Positions 4,811-57,233 of a stretch of 64,000 nucleotides of DNA are shown one piece after another (position 1 is the stretch's first letter; each line of letters starts with the position of its first letter). A program made the position numbers and the translations under genes. The notes below the pieces were generated by a model. The model had not been told where the DNA came from and made no database searches. It saw nothing but the letters and a program-made list of their open reading frames with translations. Source of the stretch: Coffea arabica (taxonomy: Eukaryota > Streptophyta > Magnoliopsida > Gentianales > Rubiaceae); contig NC_092320.1 in the NCBI RefSeq assembly GCF_036785885.1, positions 12,153,557 to 12,217,556 of the forward strand, written 5' to 3'.

Positions 4811-6652
4811 AAAATGGGTTGTGCTAATTCATATGATGTACAGGTATACACCAACGTTTTCATTCGGCTTTATTATTCATATCAAGTTGTTGGTCGAGGC
4901 ACAAATCTGCGCTTTGAGATGATATCATCGGAATCTTAATTTCCATTGACAATCACTGTTCCTTACCTCCAATAGAAAATCTGATTGTTGCAGGTGCTGA
5001 GTTGAAGTATACTGTTGGGAGTGCAATGGCTACCTCTGTCCCAGACTCTTTCCTGTGTTATCCTTGGTTAATTTTGTTTACCTTGGGTAGGAGGTTGGAG
5101 AAACTGTCTAATAATCTTTTGAGTATTTGGATACGAGACTGTTTGGATGCCAATCCTGTTATATATTTAGGAAAGGCAGCAAGTCGGGTCCTTGCGTAAT
5201 CAGGGGTGTCTGAACTCTTAACCTGATTATTTATGTTTTAACCGAACTCTTGAGTTGGGACCCGATTGGATGAAGCTATTATTATCATTCATGAATTTAG
5301 CTGCTTTTGAGTAGGGTTGTATCTATTTGCACGCTGAGGAACTTATCTCAAGCAGCGTAGAAATTTGACTGCATCAAATCGGGCCTTTAAATTGAGGTAT
5401 TGAAGAGGTGCAGAAAATAATATTAATGTGTATATTGTCAACCCATATTCAAATGTGACAAAAGACAAAGGGCGTGTCATCTCCATTGTCCAGTAAGAAT
5501 AGTTAAAAATTACAACAATCCTCGTTCTGCGCCTCAAGTTCGTGACCGACGTTTGCCTCTTCATCATCATGCTAAATGGCAAGAAAAGAAAGGGTTTAGA
5601 TGGAATAAATATTGGGCTCCTTTCATTTGGAAGAAAAGAAAGGAAATGGAATGATTTTATCAACTTGAAGTGTCTCGTGTTTCTTTCATTCATTCTCAAT
5701 TATTAATTGTGTGTTTTTATCCATCCTCTACGCTATAGAAAGTGTAAATTTTGGGACATTTATATGATTTTACTGTTAATTTTGCTAGACTTGAGGGTTT
5801 GCATGTTTGGAATGATTTGCTCCATATTTTCTCTTTTTTCCTTCCCCTTAAAGACTCCCAAACGAGCCAAAATACAATCCTAACCCTTCCTCTTCTTTTC
5901 TCGCCTAAACTCCAAGCGAGGCATAAATTTTCAATGCATGAATGGCAGTGCATTCTTAGTAGAAGCATATGTCCATGAAGCCTGGTCAGATTGCCATGTT
6001 TAGACTTTTAGATGAGAAATGCAGCGGTCCCTGTGCCTTAGGGAGCGCCATGCTCCTGCTGTCTGTCATGTAGACCTATTCTCCTCCTGGTGGCAATGCT
6101 AATCCAAATTGTAGTTTTCTTCCCTCCTCTCTCAATTCGGTGGACTAAGACAGTTGATTTTGTCTTCTGTTTTCTTGAAAATCATCTTTGTGTCAGAAAA
6201 ATCTAAAGCCTAAACTGCTATGAAATCAACTACCGTTGGGTCCGCTAAATCAATCCAAGCTGTACAGGTACAAATCAATGGTATAGTTTCATAAGTATTG
6301 TAAAAGTAAATACATGGTGAAATTTGAGACTCAAGGACAGATTGACGTGTGTGCGGGCCCATCTCAAGCTAAAATTGACAGATGGATTTAACCCAATTGT
6401 TCCACGACAAATAAAAACATGCAAAGTATTGAACTCTGTCTAATCTTTTTAATACTTTTTATAATATATATCAGTGAAAGTTTCAATTATTTGCGCATTG
6501 ATTGCTAGCAAATCCACATGGAGCGGCATATATATAATAACTAGTGCTGGAACATGCGGAGAGACGATAACTGTCAAACATGTGAATACGAGAAGTGCCC
6601 TTTATTTAGTATATATATATACTCCAGTAAGATTAGGTCGCCAAAACATTAA
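4811..6652. other. 3' UTR and intergenic, no gene seen
   Basis: The first few hundred bases should be epimerase 3' UTR. Open frames on both strands here are short, lack start context and resemble no family I know. From about 5.7 kb the sequence is AT-rich intergenic DNA with no recognisable repeat until the MITE at 6655. Confidence 0.5.
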
Positions 6653-19983: not shown

Positions 19984-21354
19984 TCAGTCCTGGTATGCCG
20001 CATAAATCTCTTCAATCTCCATCTCTGAACTGTCCGCAGGTGAAGCATCCTCTAGATTACCCATGGTCTCCTCCTGTTCATGATCGAACAAGATACTGTC
20101 ATTCTCAGACTCACTCTCAAACAGGTCCTTATCATCTATATCATGTAAAACTTCAACAGTCCCAATTCTCTTCTTTTTCTTTCTGTAATCTATAAGTCTA
20201 TCGACTTTTTCCCTCCAAACAACCAAGGGATGCTTTTCTATCAATTCTGAACCTTCATAGGCCTCATTGAGAAAGACACTAAACCTCCTCCCCCTCTCCG
20301 AAACATAAAAGATACCAAAATGCTTCAGCAACAATCGCATCAACTTTTGAGGCATCACAAATTCTCTTCTAAAGTGTGTCAAATGATCAGTTACCACCCT
20401 CTTTTCAGTTGTAAAACTCAGTAGCTCATGCATTACTGCCACAGCCCTCTTATCAAATTCTTGTGAGCCAGCTTTCAGATCTCTAGCATCTGCATACGGA
20501 GACAAATATTCTCTCTTCTGAAAATTCCCAATTTGTGGATAATATCGTGACAAGACCTTTTTATAATTAGGAGGAAACTTCATAGGAAACGACAGCGAAA
20601 GCAGCCCTGGAACGTGATCGCCACCACTCAAACCCTCAACCATCCCTGACTTCTTCTCCAATTCTGTTATTGCCCAACTAGACTTCCACTCAACAAGTTC
20701 CAAATATTCCCCCTCATCATACGGTTTAAACGGCCGCACGACTCTAAAATTTTCAGGATATCTATGCACCCAACGGCTCCTAAAATCCACTGGCAACCCT
20801 ATATCCCTCCTAAAATGTGCAATCTTCTCCAATGGAAGTCGTTTATCTACTGACATCATCAACATCCTAGTAACATATTCAGCAGCCTTATCGCTATTCT
20901 CCTCAATAATTCTTCCCTCTTCCTCCACTAATTCCTCAGCCATTTTCGTCATCCCACACCACAAGACCCCTCTCTGATCCTTGTACAGCTCGAAAAGCTT
21001 AGGCGATTTCCGAAGAAAAGCTGATAGTTTATGGGGTTTAGGGAGGTTAATTTGCCTTCTGTACCTATCTAAACTTTTAATGGGCACGATTTGTTCAGGC
21101 TCTTGCTTTAAAATTTCAAAGAAAAATAGAATCTTGGACAGTACTTTGTGCTTTTCCAGAGCCACCTCAAGATCATGGACACGTTTTCTCTTGCTCCTCT
21201 CTTGAACCCTTTTGCTGGTAGTCATCAATCGCCATTGTAAGTAGCGAAATGCATTATCATTACTATTGAACGTAACCTCATTCACAAATGGCAGGCGTAA
21301 ATTCAATAAAAATTGTCTTAAAAGAGCTTTGCTTCTAACACCTCGGTGGGGCAT
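19984..21354 (-). CDS. PORR-domain organelle RNA-binding protein (WTF1-like)
   Basis: Single-exon gene for 456 residues. The family (plant organelle RNA recognition, once DUF860) binds group II introns in mitochondria or chloroplasts and helps splice them. The start is the ATG at 21354: the frame is open to 21450 but begins there with GTG. From this ATG the protein opens with a basic, acid-poor presequence (MPHRGVRSKALLRQFLLNLR) suited to organelle import, probably mitochondrial. The family hallmark follows at about residues 45-65 (SKRVQERSKRKRVHDLEVAL). The PORR body then runs to about residue 370, with typical blocks such as FLRKSPKLFELY, RVVRPFKPYDEGEYLELV and EFVMPQKLMRLLLKHFGIFYVSERG. 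The C-terminal 60 residues are acidic and low-complexity. The target intron is not predictable. Family assignment is firm, compartment inferred. Confidence 0.9.
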   Translation of the reverse strand: MPHRGVRSKALLRQFLLNLRLPFVNEVTFNSNDNAFRYLQWRLMTTSKRVQERSKRKRVHDLEVALEKHKVLSKILFFFEILKQEPEQIVPIKSLDRYRRQINLPKPHKLSAFLRKSPKLFELYKDQRGVLWCGMTKMAEELVEEEGRIIEENSDKAAEYVTRMLMMSVDKRLPLEKIAHFRRDIGLPVDFRSRWVHRYPENFRVVRPFKPYDEGEYLELVEWKSSWAITELEKKSGMVEGLSGGDHVPGLLSLSFPMKFPPNYKKVLSRYYPQIGNFQKREYLSPYADARDLKAGSQEFDKRAVAVMHELLSFTTEKRVVTDHLTHFRREFVMPQKLMRLLLKHFGIFYVSERGRRFSVFLNEAYEGSELIEKHPLVVWREKVDRLIDYRKKKKRIGTVEVLHDIDDKDLFESESENDSILFDHEQEETMGNLEDASPADSSEMEIEEIYAAYQD

Positions 21355-21450
21355 TACATCAAACAGAAAAGAGACAAACCAGACACGCAGATGAAGGAGC
21401 GGTCTTGCGGAAGAATGATGATGTTTGTGGAAGTCCAATGACTTCTTCAC

Positions 21451-23225: not shown

Positions 23226-24995
23226 ATGAAGAAAAAACCCAGAACCCCAAAGCCGAAACCCTTTTTAGCAACCCTCTCGGCCTTACCTGGGCCGTCCTTG
23301 ATTAAGCACTTAGCCTCTTGCAACGCCTCAATCAGATCCCAATCCCTCAAGCTAATTCAAGCTTGGCTGTCGGACTCTCAAACCGAACTTCCCGAGGATG
23401 ATATGAAAAGGCTGTGGAAGGGGCTTTTCTATTGCCTTTGGCATTCGGATAAAGCTCCTGCTCAAGGTTTACTCATCAACCGTTTGTCTTCCTTGCTAAT
23501 TACGCTTGACCCTTTGCTTTCTTTGCAGTATTTTGGCTGTTTTTTGGTAACTCTTCGTCGTGAATGGACCGGCATTGATCATTTGAGATTGGATAAGTTT
23601 TACTTGCTCATTAGGAGGTTTGTGAATGGGGTTTTTTCTTTGATGAGGAAATACAAGTGGGATTTGGAGTATTTGGGGAAATATGTTGAGGTGTTGGAGG
23701 AAAAGGGGTTTTTGGCCAACGATAAATTGTTGGGTAATGGGGTGAATTATCACGTTGTTTCTGTTTTTCTTGATGAGTTGATAGGATTTAAGGTTCCGCT
23801 GGCGAGAAAGGAAGTGGTGCAGTGTTTGTTTAAGCCGTTCTTTAGTGTCATGGGGAGGTCTTTGGATAAGGTTTTGGTGGGAAAAGTGAAGAGTTGTGTG
23901 TTTGATACTTTGTTGGACGGAGGAAGGGCGTTGTTGCAGCGAAAGAAAAACGGGGTTGATGAGAAAGATGGTGAAATTAGGGATATGTTGTTGGGGTTAA
24001 TCGCATTGAAGATGGGGTTTTCTGGGAGGCTTTATGAGGTGGGAGCATCTCCTGACTGTCTTCAGGGGAATAGGAAGGTGGTTCTTGGGTTGCATGAAGA
24101 ATTTTTGAAGCTGGAGGGGGAAATGCAAGCATCACAGATTGATTTTGCCATTCCAGAGTTTAATGAGGGTGATGACAATGATGGAGAAGAGGTGCCTCAG
24201 TTAATCCCGATAGATAATGGTGTCAGGGAAGTAGTTGCTGCATCACAGGATGAAGATGCTGATCCTGTTGTTGAAAAAGAAGGGAATATTAAGAAGAAGA
24301 AGAAGAAGAAGGGGAAGGAAGCAGGCGATAAAAAAGCTAAGAAGAAGAAAAAGGACAAGGATAGGGTTATGGACTATACCTATAGGATTGAAGAAAATGG
24401 TGTAGTTAATGCTAATTGTTCAGAAAACTGCAATGCAGGTAACGATTATGCCTTGGAAAATGCGAATGCAGTTTCTGCTAATGGTTATGAATCAACCACT
24501 GCTTTCAAGAATGATGAAAGTGTCTTGGAATTCAGCGACTCTGTGATTTCAAATCTTCAGCTCCAGTTTGAGAAGATTGCTGCTGAGCAAGGTTCTGATG
24601 ATGACTTAAAGTCTTCTGATGACTTGCCTCTAGTCGCAATGAAAAAGAAGAGAAAGAGAGCTAAAACTGCAGATAGTTGTTGCAATCCAGAGGTGGGCAC
24701 TGAAGGAGAGGATGGACTAGATGCCAGTGCAAAGAGTGCCAAGAAAGTGAGGTTTGCAATGAAGAATAACTTGATCTGGAAGCCACATAGTCCATTGCCG
24801 CCTCAAAGTTTAAGGATACCACCCTCTCTTACTCCAAGAGGTAGTGCACTCAAAAAGGGAGTACCTCCAGGTCCCATCAGAGAAATGCCTCCTGCAACCA
24901 AGAAGGTGAAGCAGAAGAAGAAGGGACGAAAGATATTAAGGACAATTTCTCCTGGCATGAAACGACTCAAGAAGGTCCGAGTTGTTTCTGTTTAA
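23226..24995 (+). CDS. RRP1: Ribosomal RNA processing protein 1 homolog (RRP1/Nop52)
   Basis: Single-exon gene for 589 residues. RRP1/Nop52 proteins act in the nucleolus on precursor rRNA for the large subunit. The N-terminal Nop52 domain spans about residues 20-230: LIKHLASCNASIRSQSL, WKGLFYCLWHSDKAPAQ, REWTGIDHLRLDKFYLLIRR and YHVVSVFLDELIGF match the family. A long acidic/basic linker follows, with lysine runs coded by an AAG repeat near 24290-24312, suited to nucleolar targeting. A conserved plant C-terminal block then appears (VRFAMKNNLIWKPHSPLPP, PPSLTPRGSALKKGVPPGPI) and the tail is highly basic. The ATG at 23226 lies in a favourable CCACC context and directly precedes a basic start. 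Telo-boxes upstream fit co-regulation with ribosome biogenesis. Confidence 0.93.
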   Translation: MKKKPRTPKPKPFLATLSALPGPSLIKHLASCNASIRSQSLKLIQAWLSDSQTELPEDDMKRLWKGLFYCLWHSDKAPAQGLLINRLSSLLITLDPLLSLQYFGCFLVTLRREWTGIDHLRLDKFYLLIRRFVNGVFSLMRKYKWDLEYLGKYVEVLEEKGFLANDKLLGNGVNYHVVSVFLDELIGFKVPLARKEVVQCLFKPFFSVMGRSLDKVLVGKVKSCVFDTLLDGGRALLQRKKNGVDEKDGEIRDMLLGLIALKMGFSGRLYEVGASPDCLQGNRKVVLGLHEEFLKLEGEMQASQIDFAIPEFNEGDDNDGEEVPQLIPIDNGVREVVAASQDEDADPVVEKEGNIKKKKKKKGKEAGDKKAKKKKKDKDRVMDYTYRIEENGVVNANCSENCNAGNDYALENANAVSANGYESTTAFKNDESVLEFSDSVISNLQLQFEKIAAEQGSDDDLKSSDDLPLVAMKKKRKRAKTADSCCNPEVGTEGEDGLDASAKSAKKVRFAMKNNLIWKPHSPLPPQSLRIPPSLTPRGSALKKGVPPGPIREMPPATKKVKQKKKGRKILRTISPGMKRLKKVRVVSV

Positions 24996-32796: not shown

Positions 32797-35668
32797 CTAG
32801 GAACTCCCGGTTGAGATTGAGTCGTGTGGAGAAGTTGAGAAGGAACTATGGTCAGATTCACATTCCAGATCCTCAAACCCCCAAAATTCTTCTTGCTCCT
32901 CTTCTTCTTCTGGCATTTTCCAATTTTCTTCATTAATTCCCTCTTCCAACATTACCTCCAATATCTGCGAGTGCAGAAATCAAGAATTCAATCTTGGGAA
33001 GACCCAACTTCATGATTAAGATATATATAAGATAGTTATATAGTCTTATAGGTGATGAGCTTGAGTAAATAACCCATTACCTAAGATGGACAACTAACAG
33101 GAATTGGCAAACATGCAGACAAGCAAATTGAGCAGAAGGAGACAGATGCGTTATAGAGTTGTATCGAAATAAAAACAACATCGTAGAAAAATGTGGCTTC
33201 ATGAAGCTTTATTGAAGGACCCACTAATAAATCACCACTGATTGCTTTGGCTGTTTTTTCTGTCTCCGTGCAATGCTCACATGGGAAGGACCATTATTTA
33301 TTTATTTATTTATTTTTGGAAATTACAACATAAGGATTTTGATTTGGTAAGATACAACGTCAACTAAATGATCAGAATTTTATGATCAGAATTTATGAGA
33401 GAGAGCTGAATCAAAATGTTCATCGGGACCATCACCAACCGGGACTCAATCATAGTTTAAGTTTCTGTCTCAAGAAAATGAAAGTAAAAATCATCTCATC
33501 TCATATATGTTATTAATAAATATAGAAGACAACAGATGTCATCAAAACGTTAAAGTATTTTGATACCCAAATCTTGTGATGTGTAAATAGTCAAATTTCC
33601 ATTTGGTGGGTCAACCAGTAAGGCTCATACAGATTCCAGAATTCACTGTCTTTAGACAGGGTTTGATTGGACTAATCAGCACTACTGCCTATAAACATAT
33701 CTGTCATGCTCATGAAGGTAAGAAAATTCCTCAATACTCTGGTTAATTGTGGATAAAAATGGCAAAACATAGAAAGAAAATGATGTGCACCTTAAAAAAT
33801 GATCAAATTCATATGTTGGTGTAATTCCCATGAGCTCATATGTCTATGCACATAGGTGGCTAGCAGATTAAAGAATATGCAATCATGTAATGAATATGCA
33901 GTATTCTATCAGAAGTTCAGGACAGCAAAGTGGATTCAGCGAGCATGTCTAGCAGAACAAGACAAAACAGGCTTTTTAAATACTAAACTTCACATTTTCT
34001 GGAGCAAGTTGGATGGTTTAGGACAGAATTGCTTTATACTTTATCAAGAATCAAGCATGCATTTTTAAACAGGATTGATGAAAAGTTTAAATGCGTTGGA
34101 ATGGTTGCATGACTTGATCTGGTTTTTGGCTGAGAAATGATACAGTAATTGTGGTAATTGAATGGAAATAGTAATACCTCACTCATTGTGGGACGCCAAA
34201 TGGAAGAACCTCGAATGCAGAGGGATGCCGCAAAGGCAAGTCTGTCAAGTTGTTTAACATCATAAAACCCTCCAAGTCTTGGATCTACCACCTTTTCAAT
34301 CTCCCCTCGGCTGAGTATAGGTTTGGCCTAATTGAATTCACTACCAGGAATTAGAAAATTGACTTTTCCATCATATGTTAAACAGGAATCCTAAAATTGG
34401 CTGCCTTTGATTACCCAGCCGTGTAAGCTTTGATGAGAACCATCTATTGGTTTTTTGCCAGATAGAAGCTCCAGCAAAAAGACACCAAATGCAAACACAT
34501 CTGTCTTCTCATCGACAACGCCGTGCATGAAGTATTCAGGTGCTAAGTGCCTGTAAAATCGGTAAGAAATACAATTCAGCACAAGACCCAACTTGTAGCA
34601 GATTATGGAAGAAAGAAATAAAAAAAAAAATGTAGACAAGTAATCTACCCAAAAGTTCCTTCAATTGGAACAATTGAATGGTGAGTCCATTGTGATGGAA
34701 GCCATTTTGCAAGCCCGAAATCAGAAATCTATGAATCAAACAAATAGTAATGAATAAAAAATATCAGTCTTGGTAAAAGAGTATCAAGTGAATCCATGAG
34801 ACAATACAAGCAACTATGTAAACTTCTCCGGATAATTAGGCTATACGGTGGATACCTGTGGTTCAAAGTCTGTAGTCAATAAGATGTTTGAAGCCTTGAT
34901 GTCTCTGTGGATTATTCTTCTGGGACAGCTCTTGTGCAGATAATGTAGGCCTCTGGCAGTTCCAACAGCAATCTGATGCCTTGTTTTCCAGTCCATGGCA
35001 GGCAAGTTCTCATCTGATAAACGGTTAAACTATAAACTTAATGAAGTTTTGAAATGCAATGATATCGTCTAATAGACTTGTGGTGCTGAGCATACCATGA
35101 AGAACAGAAGCCACAGAGCCCTTAGATGAAAATTGGAAGATAAGGTAAAGTCCATTGTCAATACAACAACCAAGCAATGCAGTTACATTTGGATGGCAAA
35201 CATGTCCCAATGTTCCAATCTCTGTCAAAAATTCCTTCTCTTTCCTCTCATCATCGGACGCTTTGGTCAGCATTTTCACAGCAATTGCTTCCCCACCTTG
35301 CAATTCTCCTCTGTAAACCTCTGCATATCCTCCTTTTCCTACCATATTCTCTGATCACCCCCAAAAAAAAAATCATCATTGTTGTCCAAATGGAAAAATG
35401 GGATGCTAAGAAAAAGAAGATTGAGTGAAAAAAAATAAAAGACACCTGGGCTAAAACCATTGGTGGCAGCAAAGATTTCTGCATAGGAAAAGCATTTCCA
35501 AGAAGGTCTTTTAAGAGGTTCTGCTGGTGGAGGAGAAGCACTGTCTGTTTTGGATTTATTGTTACCTTCTTCTTGGGTAGAATCAGAGTGTTTTGGAAGT
35601 TCATCCTCAAGACTGTGTCTTTTGGGAGAAAACAGCCTCTTCAAGCTGGCAGTACGAATATACTTCAT
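32797..35668 (-). CDS. Receptor-like cytoplasmic kinase, class VI (RBK-like)
   Basis: Serine/threonine kinase without signal peptide or membrane segment. Seven exons keep phase: 35668-35446, 35350-35096, 35013-34856, 34728-34649, 34550-34415, 34327-34178 and 32964-32797 (TAG), giving 389 residues. The N-terminus [16 protein letters not shown] is typical of class VI RLCKs, whose Arabidopsis members RBK1/RBK2 bind Rop GTPases. Kinase motifs are [26 protein letters not shown] (glycine loop), AVKMLT (ATP-binding Lys), [13 protein letters not shown] (catalytic loop), [11 protein letters not shown] (DFG) and [22 protein letters not shown]. Catalytic residues are all present, so the kinase should be active. 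The last exon lies behind a 1.2-kb intron and encodes an acidic tail ([18 protein letters not shown], then Ser-rich). The start is the ATG at 35668; an in-frame TTG upstream was rejected. Rop binding is inferred from family. Confidence 0.92.
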
Positions 35669-36485
35669 CGCTGATGAATTGTAACTTTTCAATTGTACTT
35701 GTTCTGTACAAAATGGAAGCCAAGAAGTAGAAGACTACAATCTCACGAACCCGTCTGCTATTGTTGTTGGTATTGTAAGGTATAACGAGACATCGTTCAG
35801 AGAAAGAGTCAAAGGAAGTCCGTACTAATGCATTTGTTGTTCTGAACACACCTCACATACATTGCTCTTCTACAGTGCTTGTATATTCATGGTCTTTATT
35901 TGCTTTAGATAGGGATCACATGAGAGAGGAGGCCTCAGAAGCTTGGCTTTAATAATTGACGAGACCAATGGTGCTGTTAATCCAACATGAAAATGATTGG
36001 AGGAGCGGTTGGACAGGGTCATAGTAGCACATATGGGTCATGGCTCATGCCTGAATGCTCCCTCCATCGGGTTTTGATCCACCAAGATTTTTGCATTGGG
36101 GTTTACTAAAGTACTTGGCCATATGGTTTATATTTATGACAACATGCATCGAATAGTACATTAAATTCATTGGTTGGTTTGTTGGGGCTTACATTACCTG
36201 CTGATTTGGTAAGTTTGGGTTGGACTTTTTATGTTGTTGCAGGTCATTTAGGCTTTAGCAGGTAGGTCAAAGTGTTTTAGAATTATGCATCAGAAATTTA
36301 CCTCATTTACTTTCAAACTAGCAGTCATGTTCTCACGTTATTCACTGCAAAAGGATTAAAGAATGATGAAAAGGAATTACCACTTCCATGCGTGGTATTT
36401 TTTTTTTTACTATTCTGATTACAACTTCCATGCGTGGGAAACTTTCGAGATTAGCTTGCCCCAATCAACGTACAATTGGACTAAT
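35669..36485. other. Upstream region of the kinase gene up to the MULE
   Basis: No gene seen. It should hold the kinase promoter and 5' UTR on the minus strand. It ends at the target duplication of the Mutator-like element. Confidence 0.5.
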
Positions 36486-36494
36486 TTGTTTATA
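36486..36494. repeat. Left 9-bp target site duplication of the MULE
   Basis: TTGTTTATA directly before the left terminal repeat. It is identical to the nine bases after the right terminus at 42513-42521. Nine bases is the diagnostic length for Mutator-superfamily insertions. Confidence 0.95.
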
Positions 36495-36625
36495 GGGTAA
36501 AGTACATAAAACCCCCATGTGATTAAGGAAATTGACAAGAAACCTCCTCATTGTTTAGAAACTCCCACTTAACCCCCCTATGCTTTGGACTTGTTTGGAT
36601 TTTACCTGCTAACCGGCTGGGGAGC
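36495..36625 (+). repeat. Left terminal inverted repeat of the MULE
   Basis: 131 bp, matching the reverse complement of 42382-42512 except at two positions about 23 and 27 bases in. Transposase should bind here. By analogy with MuDR, the repeat may also carry the promoter of the GRF gene that starts about 250 bp inside. Confidence 0.95.
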
Positions 36626-36871
36626 TAGCAAGTGATATTTACGCGACTTAATGGTAATTTGTGCCTAGCAGAAACTCATTTCATTCCAATTTTGTCCTCC
36701 ATGTCTCTTCCAAGCTTGCACCCACCATAGTTGTAGATCTGCAAATGAAAAATTTCGACAGAGATGCAAAACGAAGACCCAAAAACGTAAAGAGCTCAGC
36801 GCAACTTTGGATGGATCAAGAAAAGCTTTGAAGGGGCTAAATCAGCTATCATTTCAAGGAAGAACCCAAAA

Positions 36872-37303
36872 ATGTCAAACTCCCAAAATTTTGGCGGTGG
36901 ATCGAGAGACCTAAGGTACCAAAATCGGCGTTGTTTCTGCAACAATAAAGCAAAGATTAAGGTAGTAGAATCTGAAAAACCATCAAAAGGTATGTTGTAT
37001 TATGTATGTGAAACTGGTGCTTGTTCATTTTGGGCATGGTGCAACCCAATTAGTAGAGAGGGAGGCACTAATGAATCATCCTGCCAAAGTCCATACGTGG
37101 AAGGGGTTTCATCAATTCGACCTGCAACCGCAGAAAGATTTATCATCTCTGGGCAAGGAATAGAAAGTAACAACTATAACATTATTATGGGATTACAATC
37201 GAAGATTCACAATGTCGAAGCAACGATGGGGCTGATGAAGATGATGATGATGCTGACTGTACTTGTGTCTCTTTTGTCACTGGTCGTTATATGTATGAGA
37301 TGA
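36872..37303 (+). CDS. GRF-type zinc-finger protein with C-terminal membrane segment, carried by the MULE
   Basis: ATG-initiated frame of 143 residues. A GRF-like zinc finger at about residues 20-58 has the ligands C-x-C (RCFCNNKAKIKV), then YYVC and GACSFWAWCNP. The middle is polar. The last 25 residues are hydrophobic (MMMLTVLVSLLSLVVICMR) and probably anchor the protein in a membrane. Plants carry many short proteins of this layout (like At4g04775), and their role is unknown. The ORF lies wholly inside the MULE, starts 246 bp from the left terminal repeat and converges on the transposase gene, the position held by mudrB in maize MuDR. It shows no sequence resemblance to mudrB that I can see. 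It could be an accessory transposition factor or a captured host gene. Confidence 0.75.
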   Translation: MSNSQNFGGGSRDLRYQNRRCFCNNKAKIKVVESEKPSKGMLYYVCETGACSFWAWCNPISREGGTNESSCQSPYVEGVSSIRPATAERFIISGQGIESNNYNIIMGLQSKIHNVEATMGLMKMMMMLTVLVSLLSLVVICMR

Positions 37304-38065
37304 ATTTTGGGCAAAAAATGTAATGTTTGGCTGTTTGGCCGTGCAATAGAATCTGGAGTTGGGAAATTGTAGTGAAGTTGTTTCAATTTGGAGTTGATTT
37401 TCATGTTTGAATTATAAATGAGCAACTGAAGCTGCTTTTGTTCAAGACATTGAAAAAGCCTGCTTCTGGTGTGGGACATATACAGAAAAACCTGAGATAC
37501 CCAATTAAATGCAATGAAGTTGTGTCCTTTAAGTCATCAGATGCAAAGATATAACCAGCAATATTGATCTCCATAAACACTTGTCAGATTTAGTCATCTG
37601 CAGCAAAGATATGGCCAGTGATATTGCCATCCATATTACCACAGCCAGACATGATAAACAAGCAAAGACGTGCCATCCATAAACACAAAAATCAACGCAC
37701 TACTACAACCATACCACAATGGTATCCTACCATAACATGGTCAAAAGGTTCACCAGCATAGCTATATAGTCACAAATGCAACAGTCGATCAAAACATAGC
37801 CAATTTATCTGAGTACAATACCACAATGGCATCAGTCAACCAAACGATAGCCATAGTCAACGAAATCATTCACACAAAAACCATAATACAACATCCACGA
37901 GAGCAACAGTCAATCAAAAAATAACCAAAAATCGGAGTACAATGAAAAATACTGCAACATCCATCCATACCATAATGGCATCAGTACATTCAACCAATAA
38001 AATGACATATTCTACTTGGCATAAGCAGTATTGTTAATCAACAAAATCAGGAAAACAAAATGAAT
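37304..38065. other. Spacer between the convergent MULE genes, with internal repeats
   Basis: A non-coding stretch inside the MULE. It contains imperfect direct repeats: 'GTCATC...GCAAAGATAT...CCAG' units at about 37529-37575 and 37593-37640, and 'CAGTC..TCAAAA..TA' units with 'GAGTACAAT' at about 37780-37850 and 37906-37960. The 3' ends of both transcripts should lie here. Confidence 0.55.
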
Positions 38066-41000
38066 TCATTTTCTTGGTCTCTTAGAGCCACTTTGTCGCA
38101 ACCTTGACATCCTTGAAGTTGCAGCAGGTTGTTTTCTCTTTGAGAATCTGCTTTGCTGGCTTTCTTGGTTGGTACCACCTATAGGCTGATTTGGCTCCTA
38201 CATGTACCTCGTCATGGTTAGTATATATGTAAGTATATTCCAGCATCCAAAAATGTTTGGCCAATACTCTCTAGTACCTGTGAAACTGTAGTAGCAGTAC
38301 TTGATACGCTTGCCTGAGCAGCAGAAGCTACGGATGTTGCATTTGAAGCTGTTTGACCAACTTTAGGTGCCTACAGTCCAAATCAAAATGAATTAGTATA
38401 TAAGTAGCAACAAAACACACTAAACCATATTACAGTAGAGTGTAAAATGTTATATTACTTTGTAAAGTTTAGACTTAGGGTCAATCGCTGATTTGCAAGT
38501 ACGTATGTTATGTCCAGTTTTCAAACATCTCCGACAGTAAACTGCAAGTCCTTTCCTACTTGCTTTCTGCTGATTTGTAGGCTCTTCTGGACCCTTCTTT
38601 CTCTGTTTTTTTGGCCTACCAGGCTGTTTTTTCACCAATGGTGGGTTCAGATATTGCATCTTGCTATCTACCCAGAACTGCTTCGAAGGAACGGGACCAA
38701 TTGTGAAGTTGTAGGCCCTTAAATATGCTTCCCTATGGTAACAAGCATCAACATATTCCTCGAATTTCAGCTTTCTGCTCTGAATGCAGGCAACCGCATG
38801 CACGCAAGGAATGCCACTAAGCTGAAAATGACCACAGGTACAAGTTTTCAACTCCAAATTGACAACATTTGTCCTTCCATAGCCATCAACTTCCAAATTT
38901 CCATTTCCTCCGTAAACCGCAACACAATTTCTTGCCTTTATCTTAAGTTTCTCCAACTTCTCATAAATGTTTGGACATAAAGTTCCACCATGTTTCAGCA
39001 TGCCCTCTCGTTTGGTTACCAACCTTTGCATTAATCTCCTCCGAATCCACTCCAACATTGTTATTATTGGCTCCCCTCTAGCTTTTAGAATGTAATTATT
39101 CCATGACTCACTCATGTTGTTAACGCAAGTGTCACTCCTACAAGCTGTACTAAAATGAGCTCTAGACCATAATTTTCGAGGCAACCGTTTGAACCATCCC
39201 GCAGCTGTTAGCTTGTCATCTTCCTGTGGGTCAGCCCTCTCAAGATTTGAAAGGGCAGTTTCATGCTCCGGCATGCTTGCTGCTGCAGCTACCTCCCAAA
39301 ACAGATCTCTAAGGTCTTGATCTTTGAATCTTAGTTTGAAGTTCTCGAACATATGTTTCAAACAGAATCTGTGCTCTGATTCAGGAAATAATTCTTCAAT
39401 TGCATGGACAAGACCCTTTTGCCTATCTGAGATGAAAGTGTAAGCCACTCCTTTGTTTCCTCTTCCAATTTGGCTGATTAATTCCCGCAAAAACCAACTC
39501 CAACTGTCGTAATTCTCAATCTCAACAACAGCAAAGGAAATAGGGAACATATTTTCATTGGCATCCCTACCCAAGGCTGTAAGCAGCTGACCTCCAAAGG
39601 GACTCTTGAGGAAGCAGCCATCTAGACCTATGATAGGTCTACATCCTTGTAGGAAACCATTTTTCAACGCACCTAAACCATAATATATCCTCTGAAATGT
39701 AGCCCTTTCCTCAATATTTCGCCTATCAATTTGCAATGAAATATGACTATCAGGATTGGAATTTTTTACAGTAGCTACATAATCCCAAAGTCTGTGGTAT
39801 TGCTCCATGTCATTGCCCCTGAGTGCCTCTAATGCCTTTTGCTTTGTCCTGGCAGCTTTTTTTTGACTAATGTCTAGCATGAACAATTTTCTTGTCTCAT
39901 TCATCATGCCAGGAATACTACACCCAGGATCATCTCTCACTTTGGCTTGAAATTTATGACTCAGATATGTTGAGGTGGCATGTCGATTGCTGTAATCCCT
40001 GCCACAATGGTGATCTCCCTTAAGAGTCTTGATCATAAATGTCTTTGATCTCTGGATTCTGCTTGCATGAATCCTCCAACTACACCCCCTTGCACATTTA
40101 GCTGTGATTCGAGACCCCTCATTTCTGATGTACTTGTGCTCATATCCCTCCCTAATACCCCATTCCACTAAAACCTCTCTAAACTTATGAAAGCTGCTAA
40201 ATTTCTGGCCAGCCTTTAGTTCAAAATGCTCTTTTCTAAACTCTTCATCCGCATTGAAGTAGCTGTAGACAGGGGTGCTTTCATCATCAGAACCTATTCC
40301 TCTGTCAAACAGGTTTTCATCATCATCTACTGCCTCATTCCAATCCTGTTCCTGCTGATTTTGTTGCTGTTGTTGATGTTCATCGAAATCAACTTCTGGG
40401 TTTTTGGTTGGTTGCTGATTCTCATGTTGTTTTTGGTGCTGTTCATCTAAATCAGCTTTGTTTGATGCTTTTGCTTGCTGATTTTCTTGTTGCTGCTCAG
40501 AAGGAATACCAACCGAATTTGCAGATCCAATATTTATAGACGCCTGTGTTGATCCTTGACCATGTAAACCTGCAAATATATCATCATCTTCAGACAGTTG
40601 TACTGCTTCTCTTAGCCAATCAGGAAAATCTGAGTAATCCAGTATGATTTCATCTTCTTCTCCGTCTTCATGAATTGGTCTTTCTTCATAACAATCAGTC
40701 TGCTCTGATGTTGGATCTCTCTCTGTCTGTGTTGTTTCTTCTGTTGATTTCCTTGTATGACACTGCCGAAACTCTGAGGAAGTATCACCTTCTTCTTTGT
40801 CTTTAAATAACCGTCTGACTGATTTCCTTGCGCTTAACTTTACTCTTTGTGACTTGACTTTTTTATCATTTCTTGCCTTCTTTCTCTTGGACTTGTCACC
40901 AGCATCATGTATCTTCTCTTTATGTGGTCCCATAACAGCTGGATCTGACTCCATTTGTGATGACTTTTCTTCGCAGACGTCCTTTGCTTTGTTGTTAATG

Positions 41001-41512
41001 TCTGGAATGTCATTATTGTCCTCACTCCCACTCCCAATTACTTCCTTGACCATGTCATCCTTGCCTTTAACAGTTGAGGACGAACTCATCTCAGCCTGCC
41101 AGGCATCATGATATGGAAGTGCAAGTATGCCATCACCAGTCACTCTCTTGTACAGTAATTTTCCTTCCGGGGACACAACTTCAATGGGATCAGACCCCCT
41201 CTCAGCATATATGTGCATTTCTTTAAGCCCCTCATAACATGTTGTCAATAATTCGATGTCCACATCATCATTGATGCTAACCACACCAAAATCAATGTCA
41301 TGAAAGGGAATAGAGTACCAGAAATTCATATTTGTAACGCCGCGCTCAATTGTTTGGTACATTTTTTGAAACTCAAATACGGATAATTCATCAGGGTCGA
41401 AATCACAAAATACCCTCACATGTTCACCAGTGTATCTAATTCTCGGCTCCCATTTGAAATATCCACCATAATGCAAGTGTATGTCTACGGTCTGCCACGA
41501 ATTATCTCCCAT
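38066..41512 (-). CDS. MURA-like transposase of the MULE
   Basis: DDE transposase that should excise and insert the element. Three exons: 41512-38459, 38370-38278 and 38197-38066 (TGA), giving 1,092 residues; without splicing the first exon stops three codons after the donor. Domains in order: a PB1-like N-terminal region (about 1-105); an acidic, Gln/Asn-rich linker; a MuDR-type zinc DNA-binding domain at about 440-510 (KCARGCSWRIHASR, GDHHC); and the MULE catalytic domain at about 620-810. The catalytic residues are IGLDGCFLKSPFGG, FISDRQKGL and NNMSESWNNY. A SWIM zinc finger (CTCGHF, then GIPCVHAVA, about 890-905) and a CCHC knuckle (CRRCLKTGHNIRTC, about 990-1005) follow. Exons 2 and 3 add a Ser/Thr/Ala tail and a basic end (SGSKRPRK) resembling a nuclear signal. 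No stop or frameshift was found. Splice joins were checked for phase but not by transcript. Confidence 0.93.
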
Positions 41513-41692
41513 TTTTATGCACCTAACCCAAAGTAACCGAGATTATTTCATGCAATATTTCATACACTCAGTTTCAAAAACATAAAAAATGAACAACAAC
41601 ACACTTATGTAGAAGGATGAAAAACATAATCAAGACCATAATCAAGACCAGTATGGACCAATGAAAATTCGATTACTCCACAAAAACTCATA

Positions 41693-41945
41693 AATAATTG
41701 CACCCAAACATTGTCAGAAAAGCTTCTGACTAAGCCAAATCTTGACATTTTGCGTATTGTTATAAAAAAACAAAAAAAATTCCCACAAACATTGTCGGAA
41801 GACTGTCGGAAAAGCTTTTGACCAAACCGAAACTGACATTTTGCAATATTTACCAAATTTCAAAAACAAATTCCCACAAACATTGTCGGAGACACTTCTA
41901 ACTAAGCCAAACATGGTAGTTCCTTTACCAAGTTTCAAAATATTC
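41693..41945. repeat. Subterminal tandem repeats of the MULE, three imperfect copies
   Basis: A unit of about 85 bp containing CAAACATTGTC(G/A)GAAAAGC, CTAAGCCAAA and TGACATTTTGC recurs at about 41700-41756, 41785-41850 and 41872-41915. It lies between the transposase start codon and the right terminal repeat. Subterminal repeats in DNA transposons often bind transposase or act in the promoter; here that is inference. Confidence 0.7.
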
Positions 41946-42164
41946 CCAACAATTTAGTACCAAAACACCTGCCATCAAACAAATCAACTCGTCTAATGCA
42001 TAAGGTTCGTATATGTATTTTACCTGGTTCAGATATGCTCAATACGTTGCGACTCTCGACCGATCTACACTTAAACGCCGATCCATCTGCACTGAAGCAC
42101 CGACCGATGTTCTTGGCTGTAGGTTTCCCGATCCGCAGCACACTAACACCTTCTTTTTGGAATT

Positions 42165-42288
42165 AGGTTTAGGGTTTCTGTCTCTAAACATGAAATGTGT
42201 CTCAAGCCCGACAGATCTTCACCATAACTCGCGCCGCTCAGCAATACAGTTACCTTCTTCTTCGTTATAGGTTTAGGGTTTCTCTCTC
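42165..42288 (-). promoter_or_regulatory. Paired telo-box-like motifs upstream of the transposase
   Basis: The plus strand has TAGGTTTAGGGTTTCT twice, at about 42166-42181 and 42268-42285. On the transposase strand these read AAACCCTAAACC, a telo-box core. Both sit between the right terminal repeat and the transposase ORF. Telo-boxes mark genes active in cycling cells, so the element may couple transposase expression to division. This is inference from motif only. Confidence 0.4.
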
Positions 42289-42381
42289 AGTTTCTTTCAT
42301 CCGCTCCAGATTGACTCATTGCATCTGTAACTTTTCACATATTATATATGAGGGTATTTTCGGTATTTCATATTATTACCG

Positions 42382-42512
42382 GCTCCCCAGCCGGTTAGCA
42401 GGTAAAATCCAAACAAGTCCAAAGCATAGGGGGGTTAAGTGGGAGTTTCTAAACAATGAGGAGGTTTCTTGTCAATTTCCTTAACCACAGGGGGGTTTTA
42501 TGTACTTTACCC
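42382..42512 (-). repeat. Right terminal inverted repeat of the MULE
   Basis: 131 bp, the reverse complement of 36495-36625 with two differences. It is expected to hold transposase-binding sites and perhaps the transposase promoter. Confidence 0.95.
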
Positions 42513-42521
42513 TTGTTTATA
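42513..42521. repeat. Right 9-bp target site duplication of the MULE
   Basis: TTGTTTATA, identical to 36486-36494. Confidence 0.95.
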
Positions 42522-46935: not shown

Positions 46936-47616
46936 ATGAGCGACCGCGGTCGTGACCACCGTGGCCGGGACCGGGACCGAGACCGAGAGCGTGACCGCGA
47001 TTTCCGCGACAGAGACCGTGACCGAGAACGGAAAAGAGAGCGGGAAGATCGCGACCGGGACCGTGAACGAAGCAAACGCGAGCGTTCTCGCTCCAGCTCG
47101 CGTACACCTGACCGCATTCGATCCCGCCACACTCGTTCTCGCACGCGCTCCCCAGCTGCTGAACGCCAACGCTCGCGTTCGTATTCTCCCGATCGCCACC
47201 ATCACCGCAGCCGCCGTCACCATCGCTCGCCTACTCCTGAAAGTCCTCCCCGGAAACGACGACGGGATGACGGCGAGAAGGAGAGGGAGAGGGATAGGGA
47301 GAGGGAGAAGGACCGACAGCGTGGCTCTTCAGTTGAGAAAAAGAAGGATAAGAAGGAGAGTGGTGGTGCTGGTGGTGACGGTAAAGGTGGAATTGATGGG
47401 GGGATAGATAATGATGATGGTGAGATGATGGATGTCGATGAAATTGAGATGATGAAGAAATTGGGGATTCCAGTAGGTTTTGATTCGACAAAAGGGAAGC
47501 CGGTGGCTGGGAACGACGTCGGGTCAGTCAGGAAGGTAACTAAACGTCAGCCACGGCAGTACATGAATCGCCGCGGTGGATTTAATCGGCCCTTGCCTGC
47601 AGAAGTCAACCGTTGA
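46936..47616 (+). CDS. SNRNP27: U4/U6.U5 tri-snRNP 27-kDa protein (SNRNP27)
   Basis: Spliceosome component of the tri-snRNP, acting in the nucleus in pre-mRNA splicing. Single exon, 226 residues, ATG in CCACC context. Residues 1-135 are an RS/RD/RE-rich domain of alternating Arg and Ser, Asp or Glu. An acidic hinge follows (about 155-170), then the diagnostic C-terminus: MMKKLGIPVGFDSTKGKPVA and RQYMNRRGGFNRPLPAEVNR, which marks this family and is absent from ordinary SR proteins. GC content is much higher than the flanks, as the repetitive Arg codons require. Long antisense frames over the gene are shadows of the repeat. Confidence 0.95.
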   Translation: MSDRGRDHRGRDRDRDRERDRDFRDRDRDRERKREREDRDRDRERSKRERSRSSSRTPDRIRSRHTRSRTRSPAAERQRSRSYSPDRHHHRSRRHHRSPTPESPPRKRRRDDGEKERERDREREKDRQRGSSVEKKKDKKESGGAGGDGKGGIDGGIDNDDGEMMDVDEIEMMKKLGIPVGFDSTKGKPVAGNDVGSVRKVTKRQPRQYMNRRGGFNRPLPAEVNR

Positions 47617-53552: not shown

Positions 53553-54004
53553 GGGCCTGTTTGGAACTGGACCTGTTTGGAAGTGGGTTTTTGGCCAAGT
53601 TTTTTAGCTACAAGTCTTTTAACAATTTTAGCTACAGGAATCCAGAAAAACTTATCAAATTTTTTAACCTATACATTTCAAAATATTTAATACACAAAAA
53701 ACTTCTATCTTTCTTCTTCTTTCTCCCCCACCCCATCCACCATACCTTCATTGCCGGCCACCACCTCTGCCGCCGTTTCCGGCGTCGGCCACCTATTCGG
53801 CTATTCTGGCATCGGCGTTCCCAATTTTTTTTTTCCTTCCTTTCTCCCTCCCTCTCTCCTTCCCTCCCTTCCCTGGCCAAACTTCCCCGACCTATGCAAC
53901 AGCAGCGATTACTTTCCTCCTGCTCTGATTTTTCTTTGTCCCTCCAGTCACGCCAACGCTACGGCTGACGGGGAAACAGGGGAACAGAGGGGGTGGGGGT
54001 GGCG

Positions 54005-54535
54005 GGAAACGGGAAACGGGAAGGGGAACAGGGGAGGGGGAAAAGAGAGAGGGGACGGCTGAGGGGAGGGGGTGGTGTGCTGGGGGAGGGGCTGGGAGGC
54101 AGCGGGGGCCGGGCTGGCGGGGGGAGGGGGTGGCGTGCTGGGGGAGGGGCTGGGGGGCAGCGGGGGCCGGGCTGGAGGGGGAAAGGGAAGGCACGGGGCA
54201 GCGGGTGCCAGGCTTGCAGAGGGGAGGAGGAAGGGGCAGAGGGGTTGGCGGGGGGAGGAGGCAGCAGGGGACGGGCTGGCCGGGGGAGGGGGAGGCGGGG
54301 GGCAGCAAGGGCCGGGATTGCAGAGGGGAGGGGGAAGGGGCAGAGGGGCTGGCGGGGGAAATGCAGAGCAGAGGAGAAGGGGAAAGGGAGGAGAGGGGTG
54401 GCGGGAGGGGGAAGGAAGAAGAAGAAGAAGAAGAAGAAAAAGAAAGAGAGGAAAGAAAAGAAAAAGGGGAAAAAAAAAAGAAAGAGAAAGAAAAAAAAAG
54501 AAAAAGAAAAAAAAATTCACCTCACAAAAACTTTT
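54005..54535. repeat. G/A-rich tandem and low-complexity tract (unit A)
   Basis: Over 500 bases of almost pure purine on the plus strand. G-rich repeats of GGGGGAGGGGCTGG type (54060-54380) are followed by GAA/AAG-rich sequence. It supports many long false ORFs on both strands. The G runs could form quadruplex or triplex DNA. Confidence 0.8.
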
Positions 54536-54779
54536 ATAAAATTTTTTATCTTACAAAAAAATTTTTCACCTTACAAAAACTTCTACAAAATTTTTTCAAA
54601 AACTTCTACAGTGCAATACAGTAAAGTTTTAAACAAACTCCCAAAGAACTCAGGGCCTGTTTGGAACCTGAGTTTTTTGGGAGTTTGTCTAAAACTTTAC
54701 TGTAGCGTACTGTAGAAGTTTTTGAAAAATTTTTGTAAAAATTTTTGTAAGGTGAAAAATTTTATAGAAATTTTTGTAA

Positions 54780-55165
54780 GGTTTTTTTTTCCTGTTCTTT
54801 TTTTTTTTTCTTTTTCTCTTTCTCTTTCTTTTTCTTTTTCTTTTTCTTTCTTTCCTTTTTCTTTTTTTTTTTTCTTCTTCTTCTTCTTCTTCCCCGTTAC
54901 CTCCGCCGCCCCCTGCAAAAGCTCCCCCGTCGCTCCCCTCTGCCCGCAACCCCCTCCCCCACCCCTGCAAAAGCTCCCCCTCTCTGTCCCTCTGCCCGCC
55001 ACCCCTCTGCCCGCAACCCCCCTCCCCCACCCCTACAAAAGCTCCTCCCCCACCCCTGCAAAAGCTCCCCCTCTCTGTCCCTCTGCAAAAGCTCCTCCCC
55101 TCTTTGTCTCTCTGTCCCTCTGCCCGCAACCCCCCTCCCCCACCCCCTGCAAAAGCCCCCCCACT
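54780..55165. repeat. Pyrimidine tract and C-rich minisatellite (unit B)
   Basis: T/C-rich sequence, then several copies of a unit built on CCCACCCCTGCAAAAGCTCC with CTCTCTGTCCCTCTGCCCGC between copies (about 54910-55160). It lies in the inverted relation expected of units A and B. Confidence 0.75.
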
Positions 55166-55867
55166 CCAATACTGACAACGAACTTTCTGCCACTGCACCC
55201 TCCAAATCCGCCATTGCGTCCACCACAACCCCAACTGCCCCGGCTTCGACTGCGCCGACTTAGCCATGACCCTTTCTTTTAGACAGCTCACCACCCATTT
55301 CATGACCGTAGCCGGGCATGTCACCGCATCTCCACCGTCCGCGACTGCGCATGGGTTTGGAATGAGTGACTTTTCTAGCAAGTGTAGCGCGCCGAGCTTG
55401 TCTTCGTCGGATCCAGAGCTGAAACGAAGCTCCGCAACGTGAAAAGTTTCTTCCAACTTGGTAGCGGATAGTTGCGGCGGTGGCAGAGAATCATGCGCTT
55501 TTCTTGGTGGGGTGGGCTCCGAAATCTTCGGCTTTTCTTGAGTTTGCTGATACGGGTGTATAAAATGGTGAGAGATGGGGGAGTTAGTCAGCGGGAACCT
55601 CCATTGGGTGAAGCTCTGGGAGGTGTATGAGGAAGATGAGGATGATTCCGAATCGGGTTTGGTCGGTGCATGTGGTGGATGAGAGGAAGACGATGGAGGA
55701 GGGAGAGGAGGAGGAGGAGGTGGTGGTAGTGGTGATGTTGGTTTTGGCGGTGGCTGATCAGAGATGGCTGGGAAAGGGAGTGCTGGAGAAATGGTGGTGG
55801 TCGGACTGAGCACTGTTTGAGTACAGTTGCGAAAAAACCCGCAAGAAAAAAGTGGACGTGGGTGCAA
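55158..55867 (-). pseudogene. Captured fragment of an ARM-repeat protein gene inside unit B
   Basis: On the minus strand the frame from 55867 has no ATG at its start and reads HPRPLFSCGFFRNCTQTV, a Pro/Ser-rich stretch, then KLEETFHVAELRFSSGSDED and KLGALHLLEKSLIPNP. After about 55262 the protein-like frame shifts, and VEAGAVGVVVDAMADLEGAV (from 55250 down) looks like the next armadillo-type helical repeat. It then runs into the minisatellite. So it is a 5' gene piece with a lost start, a deletion or frameshift and no 3' end. It resembles plant ARM-repeat proteins, some of them U-box ligases; the exact parent is not known. Such fragments inside non-autonomous elements are the mark of Pack-type gene capture. 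Confidence 0.6.
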
Positions 55868-57233
55868 TTTTTAGCTTGGGGTGTTGAGATTTCATTACCG
55901 GCGCCGGAAGCGGTGGTGGAGGTTGTGCCGGTTGGGTGGGGGAGAAAAAAGAAGAAAAATTGAAGGGAAAGTTTTTTGTGTATTATTTTAAAATGTGTAG
56001 GTAAAAAACTTTGATAAGTTTTTTGGGGTTCCTGTAGCAAAAGTTGTTAAAAAACTAGTAGCTAAAAAACTTGGCCAAAAACTTCACTTCCAAACAAGCC
56101 CTCAGGTTCCAAACAGGCCCTGAATTTTTTGGGAGTTTATCTAAAACTTTACTGTAGTGTACTGTAAAAGTTTTTGAAAATTTTTTGTAGAAGTTTTCGT
56201 AAGGTGAAAAACTTTTTTATAGAAGTTTTTGTAATGCGAAAAATTTTATAGAAGTTTTTGTAAGGAGAAAATTTTTTTTCCCTTTTCTTTTTCTCTTTCT
56301 CTTTCTTTTTCTTTTTCTTTCTTTCCTTTTTCTTTTCTTTCCTCTCTTCTTCTTTTTCTTCTTCCTTCCCTCTTCCCCGTTACCTCTGCCTCCCACCTCC
56401 AGCACCTCCGCCAGCACCACCTCTCTCTTTTTTTTTTCTTTTCTTCTCTCCCCCCTCCCACTCCCTTCCCCGTTCCTCTCCCCTCTGCCCGCCACCCCTT
56501 TGGGCCGCCACCCCTTATGCCCACCATCCCTTTCCTCCCCTCTCCCCCGCCACCTTCTCTGTCCCTTCCCCCTCTGCCCTGCCACGCCCTTCCCTCGCCA
56601 CCCCCTCTGCCCCTTCCCTCTCCCCTGTTCCCCTTCCCGCTTCTCACCTTCCCTCCGCCCCTTTCTTTTCTTCACATTTTCCCTCTCCCTCTCCTCCCGT
56701 CTCCTCTCCTTGCTCTTGTCGGCAGTTGAAGCAGCGAAATGAAATTTTTTTTTTGGACAATTTTCCTTCTCCCCTTCCTCTCCTTCCCCCGCCACCCTCA
56801 CCCTCCCCCTCTCCCGTGTGATCTAGTCTAATGACCAGATCGGCTAGAGGGAGAGGGGAAAGGGAAGGGTGGTGGGGGAGGAGTGGGGGAGACGCAGAGA
56901 GAAAAAAAAAAGATAGAGGGGAGGATGGCGGGGGAGGAAGAAGGGGAGAGGGAAAAAGGGCAAAAAAAAAAAAGAAGACTGGCACCGGAAGAGGTGATTG
57001 ACGCCGGAACCGGCGGTGGAGGTGGTGGCCGACGACGAAGGTGGTGGTGGGTTGGGGTGGGAGAGGAAGAAGAAGAAAAGAAGGGGAAGGGAAATTTTTT
57101 TTTTTTTTGTGTTTTGAATATTTTAAATGTGTAGGTAAAAATTTTGATAAGTTTTTTAGATTCCTGTAGCAAAAGTTGTTAAAAAACTAGTAGGTAAAAA
57201 ATTTGTCCAAAAATCTGGCTTCCAAACAGGCCC

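Follow-up and report, generated by a model that had tools for sequence, protein, structure and literature searches.

A GRF-type zinc-ribbon gene convergent with the transposase gene in Mutator-like elements of Coffea arabica

The window analysed here, a 64-kb stretch of Coffea arabica DNA, contains a complete Mutator-like element (MULE) that spans 36495-42512 (6018 bp). The element, which starts with GGGTAAAG and ends with CTTTACCC, is bounded by terminal inverted repeats (TIRs) of 131 bp that are 98.5% identical to each other (36495-36625, plus strand, on the left; 42382-42512, minus strand, on the right), and a perfect 9-bp target-site duplication (TSD), TTGTTTATA, is present on both flanks (36486-36494 and 42513-42521). 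Long TIRs and a TSD of 8-11 bp are the criterion by which MULEs are recognised in PMC6446971; the window element displays both features together with a MULE-type transposase, and is an autonomous-looking MULE. The main open reading frame (ORF) of the transposase occupies 38450-41512 of the minus strand and encodes 1020 aa, and a three-exon model with GT-AG sites, ending at 38066, gives a predicted protein of 1092 aa. Exon 1 (38459-41512) carries DBD_Tnp_Mut, MULE and SWIM domains, and exons 2 (38278-38370) and 3 (38066-38197), on the same strand, are predicted from GT-AG sites and an open frame. With Transposase_mut these are the Pfam domains of the transposase, the scores of which (PF10551, 65.6 bits; PF03108, 49; PF00872, 38.2; PF04434, 33.1) all exceed their cut-offs; a PB1-like domain, the label used in the initial annotation, gave no Pfam match in the protein at E<=1 and is thus unconfirmed. 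For residues 1-120, a single-sequence structure model reached a mean pLDDT of 35.9 and could not be used. The 5' region of the transposase gene contains two copies of a 91-bp tandem repeat (41712-41890) beside two telo-box-like TAGGGTTT words at 42170 and 42274, which are perhaps promoter or transposase-binding elements. The second gene of the element, at 36872-37303 on the plus strand, encodes a GRF-type protein and is read from the left TIR, while the transposase gene is read from the right TIR. Thus, the two genes form a convergent pair inside a single element, as the initial annotation had proposed. A protein search of the window revealed no second copy of either gene.

The element lies approximately 0.8 kb upstream of the likely start of a protein-kinase gene on the minus strand (approximately 34000-35700; one exon was scanned, with a Pfam kinase match), which is probably receptor-like. 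Mutator elements favour the 5' ends of genes. Ordinary host genes encoding PORR-domain (19984-21450), Nop52-domain (23226-24995) and SNRNP27-domain (46936-47616) proteins are also present in the window, and a low-complexity stretch at 53900-56800 displays overlapping long ORFs on both strands that are probably spurious.

The GRF ORF extends from an ATG at 36872 to a TGA at 37303 and encodes 143 aa. A frame of at least this length occurred in 25 of 2000 dinucleotide shuffles; by itself the length is only modestly unlikely, and is weak evidence. The domain call is firmer. Residues 21-58 match Zn_ribbon_GRF (PF06839) with 25.1 bits (E=1.9e-5), which places the window protein strictly just below the curated cut-off of 25.9, and all four relatives tested score above it (L033, 32.6 bits; L036, 30.6; L039, 32.7; L041, 29.8). 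The matched stretch contains four cysteines, C21, C23, C46 and C51, that we read as putative zinc ligands; the same four occur in the five family representatives, and they are partly missing in copies L029, L032 and L040. The conserved zinc core (residues 14-59, LRY..CxC..C..C..WCNP; 36911-37048, plus strand) is 57-80% identical among the five representatives, which share the LRY motif, the four cysteines and the motifs KP(S/T)KG.LY(Y/F).CE and C.F(F/W).WC(N/H)P, followed by a variable linker and then a hydrophobic C-terminal 19-mer. The signature of the GRF family is Gly-Arg-(Phe/Tyr). In the window protein the Arg is replaced by Met (KGMLYY); of the window copy and the 29 copies fetched, only L033-L035 and L040 have the Arg. 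As Met or Leu occupies this position in four of the five families, the single-strand DNA binding of classical GRF domains may have been lost.

The C-terminal 19-mer of the window protein (residues 124-142; 37241-37297, plus strand) is a predicted transmembrane segment with a mean hydropathy of 2.63, a value reached by 5 of 5000 residue shuffles. Equivalent tails, ending 1-5 residues from the C terminus and with mean hydropathies of 2.58-2.90, are present in all five representatives, in agreement with the hydrophobic anchor noted at the outset. The single-sequence structure model of the GRF protein is poor (mean pLDDT 48.1); its strands at the zinc core are of low confidence, and residues 115-142 form a helix in which the block pLDDT from residue 121 is 71-87. 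We have good confidence that the protein is anchored in a membrane through its predicted C-terminal tail.

The genome from which the window derives (1.198 Gb in 131 contigs) was searched with both proteins, and the matches lie mostly on contigs C1-C22, several of which resemble homoeologous pairs. The GRF protein returned 151 matches from the best 150 of 518 candidates. No in-frame stop interrupts 27 of the 33 rows that rank highest (identity of 87-100%, the window copy among them; counted by eye). Flanking sequence was fetched for 20 of the 22 best rows, the window copy and C2:39992367 being left out. Transposase sequence, intact or broken, accompanies 19 of these 20 sister copies, the exception being L022, and is convergent with the GRF gene in every one. 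Two TIR matches were found in 17 of the 20, one being an odd compound copy, L027. When the element ends were allowed to shift by up to two bases, the TSDs of the 18 two-TIR copies (window included) agreed at 9/9 positions in 13, at 8/9 in 3 and at 7/9 in 1; L027 has no TSD, and the 9/9 TSD of L030 is a run of A. The GRF frame is cut short in L021, L025 and L030, and its start codon is altered in L018, L029 and L032. The sister copies therefore represent separate insertions, with the GRF gene inside the element. Two local clusters were also observed. Within approximately 1.34 Mb at C2:39.6-41.0 Mb there are ten GRF copies from the element family to which the window copy belongs, three with identical match scores, which suggests local duplication, and five partial GRF matches of equal score are located on one strand at C9:8.63-9.05 Mb.

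Plants contain many short GRF proteins. It could therefore be argued that the association arises secondarily from the host genes nearby, MULEs having inserted close to resident GRF genes. We regard this explanation as the most remote of those considered. In the window element and in 17 of the 20 sister copies fetched, the GRF gene is enclosed by the two TIRs, in most cases with matching TSDs beyond them; GRF proteins at four dispersed sites are 100% identical; and the orientation is nearly always convergent, whereas insertion near host genes should generate all orientations. The location of the gene between the TIRs led us to reject this possibility. A second argument is that a single MULE captured a fragment of a host GRF gene by chance, in the manner of a Pack-MULE, and has carried it passively since. 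MULEs are indeed known to capture host genes (PMC6446971, PMC9168764), and the sub-threshold domain match of the window copy could be seen as pointing in the same direction. The initial annotation had specified that absence of the GRF ORF from sister elements, or neutral evolution, would indicate such a capture; the convergent transposase in 19 of the 20 fetched copies is the first result that speaks against it.

The second is provided by the pattern of substitution. Relative to the window, the dN/dS of the GRF gene is below 1 in all 14 copies compared (0.14-0.58), L013-L015 being left out because their protein is identical and L021, L025 and L030 because their frames are cut. The pooled pN/pS across all pairs of 15 family members is 0.40, and bootstrap intervals exclude 1 in six of eight copies, those of L031 and L032 extending above it. 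By region, dN/dS is 0.20 in the zinc region, 0.375 in the linker and 0.33 in the tail. Five between-family pairs with dS >1.3 have ratios of 0.27-0.45, L039-L041 has 0.11 and two pairs were not computable; within other families the ratio is 0.41 (L033-L034) and 0.48 (L033-L035). The young pair L036-L037 gave 2.1 on 8 changes. For the transposase, two diverged intact copies have dN/dS of 0.31-0.34 over the whole protein and 0.13-0.15 in the core, compared with 0.23-0.27 for the GRF gene of the same copies, indicating that in these two copies the transposase core is under the stronger constraint; in copies with stops the transposase ratio is 0.40 (L032) and 0.91 (L019). In six comparisons the nucleotide identity of the GRF coding sequence (93.5-98.4%) is slightly above that of the transposase core (92.3-97.6%) in each case, and the intergenic stretch is 70.9-96.7% identical. 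It should be emphasized that these comparisons share the window sequence and are not independent. The GRF protein sequence is under purifying selection, and neither of the refuting outcomes named in the initial annotation was obtained. The pattern of conservation suggests that it is the transposon, and not the host plant, that benefits from the protein. With dN/dS below 1 and an identity above that of the flanking DNA, passive carriage of a captured fragment is very improbable, and in view of both the sister elements and the evidence for selection we reject it.

A further observation that a capture by one element does not accommodate is that the same gene occurs, in the same orientation, beside the transposases of several divergent MULE families. 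A search with the window transposase (68 rows from the best 45 of 3608 candidates scored) identified 44 merged loci, and at 43 of these a convergent GRF match, drawn from 72 of the 151 GRF rows, lies within 6 kb. At the exception, C3:68607903, the transposase matches that of the window at 100%, with no GRF gene or left end among the listed matches. A search with the transposase of L041 (90 rows, the best 90 of 3260 candidates scored) was compared with 149 Pfam GRF rows and 34 rows from the window-GRF search. A convergent GRF match lies within 15 kb in 65 of the 90 rows, none is in another orientation and 25 rows have none listed; 20 of the 90 rows are already counted among the 44 loci above, and 4 of the 65 pairs derive from one tandem array on C6 that shares a single GRF gene. 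Of the 16 transposases most similar to that of L041, 8 have no GRF gene among the listed matches. At C6:14109976-14130894 six MULE transposase fragments follow one another at a spacing of exactly 3915 bp. They have equal scores and stops of the same kinds, and duplication is a likelier origin for this tandem array than transposition.

The GRF gene of L036 is partnered by a different transposase, which has MULE and SWIM matches and is approximately 20% identical to that of the window. In several copies of the L036 family, such as C17:1025076 and C11:23572295, a FAR1 DNA-binding domain is located just upstream in the same 733-aa open frame, L036 itself being absent from the listed FAR1 matches. 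When 69 further GRF rows, some of which are of the L041 type and paired with L041-type transposases, were compared with L036-type transposases within 20 kb, 36 were convergent, 2 divergent and 1 on the same strand, with 30 unpaired; approximately 0.25 pairs are expected by chance, and both divergent cases also have a convergent partner (C11:56247964 and C2:44795541). Ten of the 151 GRF rows entered neither the 72-row nor the 69-row comparison. From the side of the L036-type transposase, and with four GRF rows of the Pfam search added, 39 of 107 rows are convergent, 1 is divergent, 1 is on the same strand and 66 have no partner. L036 also contains, at 4251-4883 in the GRF-forward orientation, a 210-aa ORF that is located on the GRF strand near the FAR1-type transposase and has no Pfam match at E<=0.1. 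A 205-aa version is present in L037 and L038, and a third gene of this MULE family is possible.

A comparison of Pfam matches alone, in which none of the element sequences analysed above served as a query, used 149 GRF rows (from the best 150 of 763 candidates) and 150 MULE rows of 2147 candidates. Within 20 kb, 32 of the GRF rows are convergent with a MULE domain, 3 are on the same strand, none is divergent and 114 are unpaired; random placement, with every large contig taken as 50 Mb, yields 0.7 pairs on average and at most 6. Of the 32 pairs, 22 belong to a further group in which a partial GRF match is separated from the MULE domain by 13-16.5 kb, and we infer that the two domains are likely parts of one element. 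At three loci (C16:40868144, C15:48975434 and C8:47033774) FAR1 and MULE domains are followed approximately 2 kb downstream, on the same strand, by a GRF match, and these are possibly host FAR1-related genes that have gained or kept a GRF exon. As only the best candidates were scored in each search, an unpaired row does not establish that the GRF gene is absent; MULEs that lack it may nevertheless exist. Copies within a family are not independent, and what gives the association its weight is how many divergent families display it, MuDR-type as well as FAR1-type MULEs being among them.

Pairing across MULE families, together with dN/dS below 1, indicates that the GRF ORF is most likely a selected accessory gene of MULEs rather than a chance capture. 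The view that such genes travel with MULEs, and are accessory rather than host genes, is thus upheld by the 43 of 44 convergent loci and by the additional families. That the gene has accessory status is very probable; the association with transposases and the signal of selection, both in one genome, are the basis on which an accessory function is proposed. The explanation that best fits the data as a whole, and that we consider likely, is that the second MULE gene encodes a small zinc-ribbon helper of element spread that is tail-anchored in a membrane. The zinc ribbon of such a protein would face the cytosol or nucleoplasm and would bind nucleic acid or a protein partner, and the protein would promote spread independently of the end sequences of its own element. 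Given the membrane tail, the endoplasmic reticulum and the nuclear envelope are the likeliest places for it to act.

Between the L036 family and the others the zinc cores are 59-63% identical, and the whole GRF protein is approximately 37% identical over 131 aa, which exceeds the approximately 20% identity of the transposases. Retention of the GRF protein, and of its core above all, while transposases diverge suggests a host partner common to the families, a nucleic-acid structure of a general kind or gene exchange between MULE lineages. It is a poor fit to a reader of the element's own DNA, for which faster divergence would be expected. This bears on the possibility that the protein is, like VANC, a sequence-specific anti-silencing factor that binds short repeats in the non-coding DNA of the element and removes methylation. 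The GRF gene is the second gene of a MULE, and the 91-bp tandem repeat in the 5' region of the transposase recalls the targets of VANC, which are often tandem repeats (PMC5735166). VANA, however, is much more conserved than VANC (PMC5735166), the reverse of the relationship seen here; VANDALs are non-TIR MULEs (PMC13317346), whereas the window element has TIRs; and a membrane tail is poorly suited to a chromatin protein. We consider a VANC-like role improbable.

For the tail-anchored helper, we tentatively favour, as a first choice, a role at membranes in which it would protect the transcripts or intermediates of the element against silencing by the host. The second choice, which we consider rather unlikely, is that the protein resembles MURB in helping excised DNA to reinsert. 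It would then be needed for reinsertion rather than excision and would have transposition intermediates as its substrate, perhaps by binding single-stranded DNA at the nuclear envelope. The convergent two-gene layout is that of MuDR, MURB is described as crucial for insertion (PMC9168764), and the best of seven weak matches in a sequence search of the PDB is to NEIL3 (chain 7jl5, E=0.057). This proposal, however, leaves the membrane tail unexplained and sits uneasily with the loss of the signature Arg from four of the five families. In addition, polymorphic rice elements lack the extra ORF, from which the authors of the Abermu study conclude that it may be unimportant for transposition (PMC9168764).

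In its broadest form, a proposal to which we give slightly less than even odds, small tail-anchored GRF proteins would be a module that plant MULEs in general use in trans, either exchanged between MuDR-type and FAR1-type lineages or retained in both, and would act at a host membrane on a common step, either silencing or reinsertion. If this proves correct, many short plant GRF proteins would be transposon genes or their domesticated descendants, and plant genes annotated as 'GRF-type domain' would be re-labelled as transposon genes, which matters for annotation. A domain-defined helper common to very different MULE transposases would also point to a shared and testable host step. In the text surveyed, few MULE helper genes are described, namely mudrB, vanB/vanC and the ORFR of Abermu elements (PMC6446971, PMC9168764).

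No paper linking GRF proteins to MULEs was found in the part of the open-access full-text literature surveyed, and nothing on GRF was found in the accessible portion of a grapevine MULE paper (PMC2528002). In the available text of a comparative study GRF-type zinc fingers are listed beside (retro)transposon domains among enriched domains (PMC10359422). Searches of other collections did not identify relatives. Viral contigs gave 7 pattern matches to the GRF protein and 2 to the transposase, and a genome-contig collection gave 7 to the transposase, none of which was confirmed; a plasmid search with the transposase gave one Sulfolobus IS256-family match (28.1% identity) that was not counted as a relative. 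A degenerate DNA pattern for a plant-type motif, NPGRRF(F/Y)GC, returned 0 matches and then 4 bacterial loci, which were rejected as chance after translation.

The suggestion that no system of this kind has been described requires qualification, as extra MULE genes, namely mudrB and vanB/vanC (PMC6446971) and especially the Abermu ORFR, are on record; what stands is that a GRF domain is named for none of them in the text available. The GRF zinc fingers (PF06839) of NEIL3 and APE2 share the Cys-rich zinc ribbon and Pfam model with the window protein. In these DNA-repair enzymes, however, GRF is an extra domain, whereas the MULE protein is small and stands alone, has a predicted membrane tail and in most cases lacks the signature Arg. 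In MuDR, mudrA and mudrB are convergent from the two TIRs. Like the window element, MuDR thus combines two convergent genes, reported as oppositely transcribed (PMC9168764), with a transposase of the Mutator superfamily. The likeness of MURB to the GRF protein described here is one of gene layout; mudrB is still said to encode a protein of unknown function (PMC6446971), or a helper (PMC9168764), and the accessible text of these papers names no GRF domain for it. The Arabidopsis VANDAL/Hiun elements (VANA, VANB and VANC) are likewise MULEs with extra genes, one of which is proven to act in trans. In contrast to the window element, with its TIRs and a GRF protein more alike across families than the transposase, VANDALs are non-TIR (PMC13317346), and VANC, which counteracts silencing through sequence-specific DNA binding, is less conserved than the transposase (PMC5735166). 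The nearest described gene is the ORFR of the Abermu MULEs of grasses, which, like the window element, have a 9-bp TSD, GGG...CCC ends and an extra ORF on the strand opposite the transposase (PMC9168764); the Abermu TIRs are 138-145 bp long and the Ka/Ks of ORFR is 0.39-0.56 in three comparisons (PMC9168764). ORFR is described as evolving rapidly, with no detectable similarity between distant hosts (PMC9168764), whereas in the elements studied here the GRF core can be identified from one MULE family to another. The comparison is by description only, as the text of PMC9168764 available to us names no domain for ORFR and does not contain the term 'GRF'. Should ORFR prove to be a GRF protein, the Abermu and GRF-MULE systems would merge.
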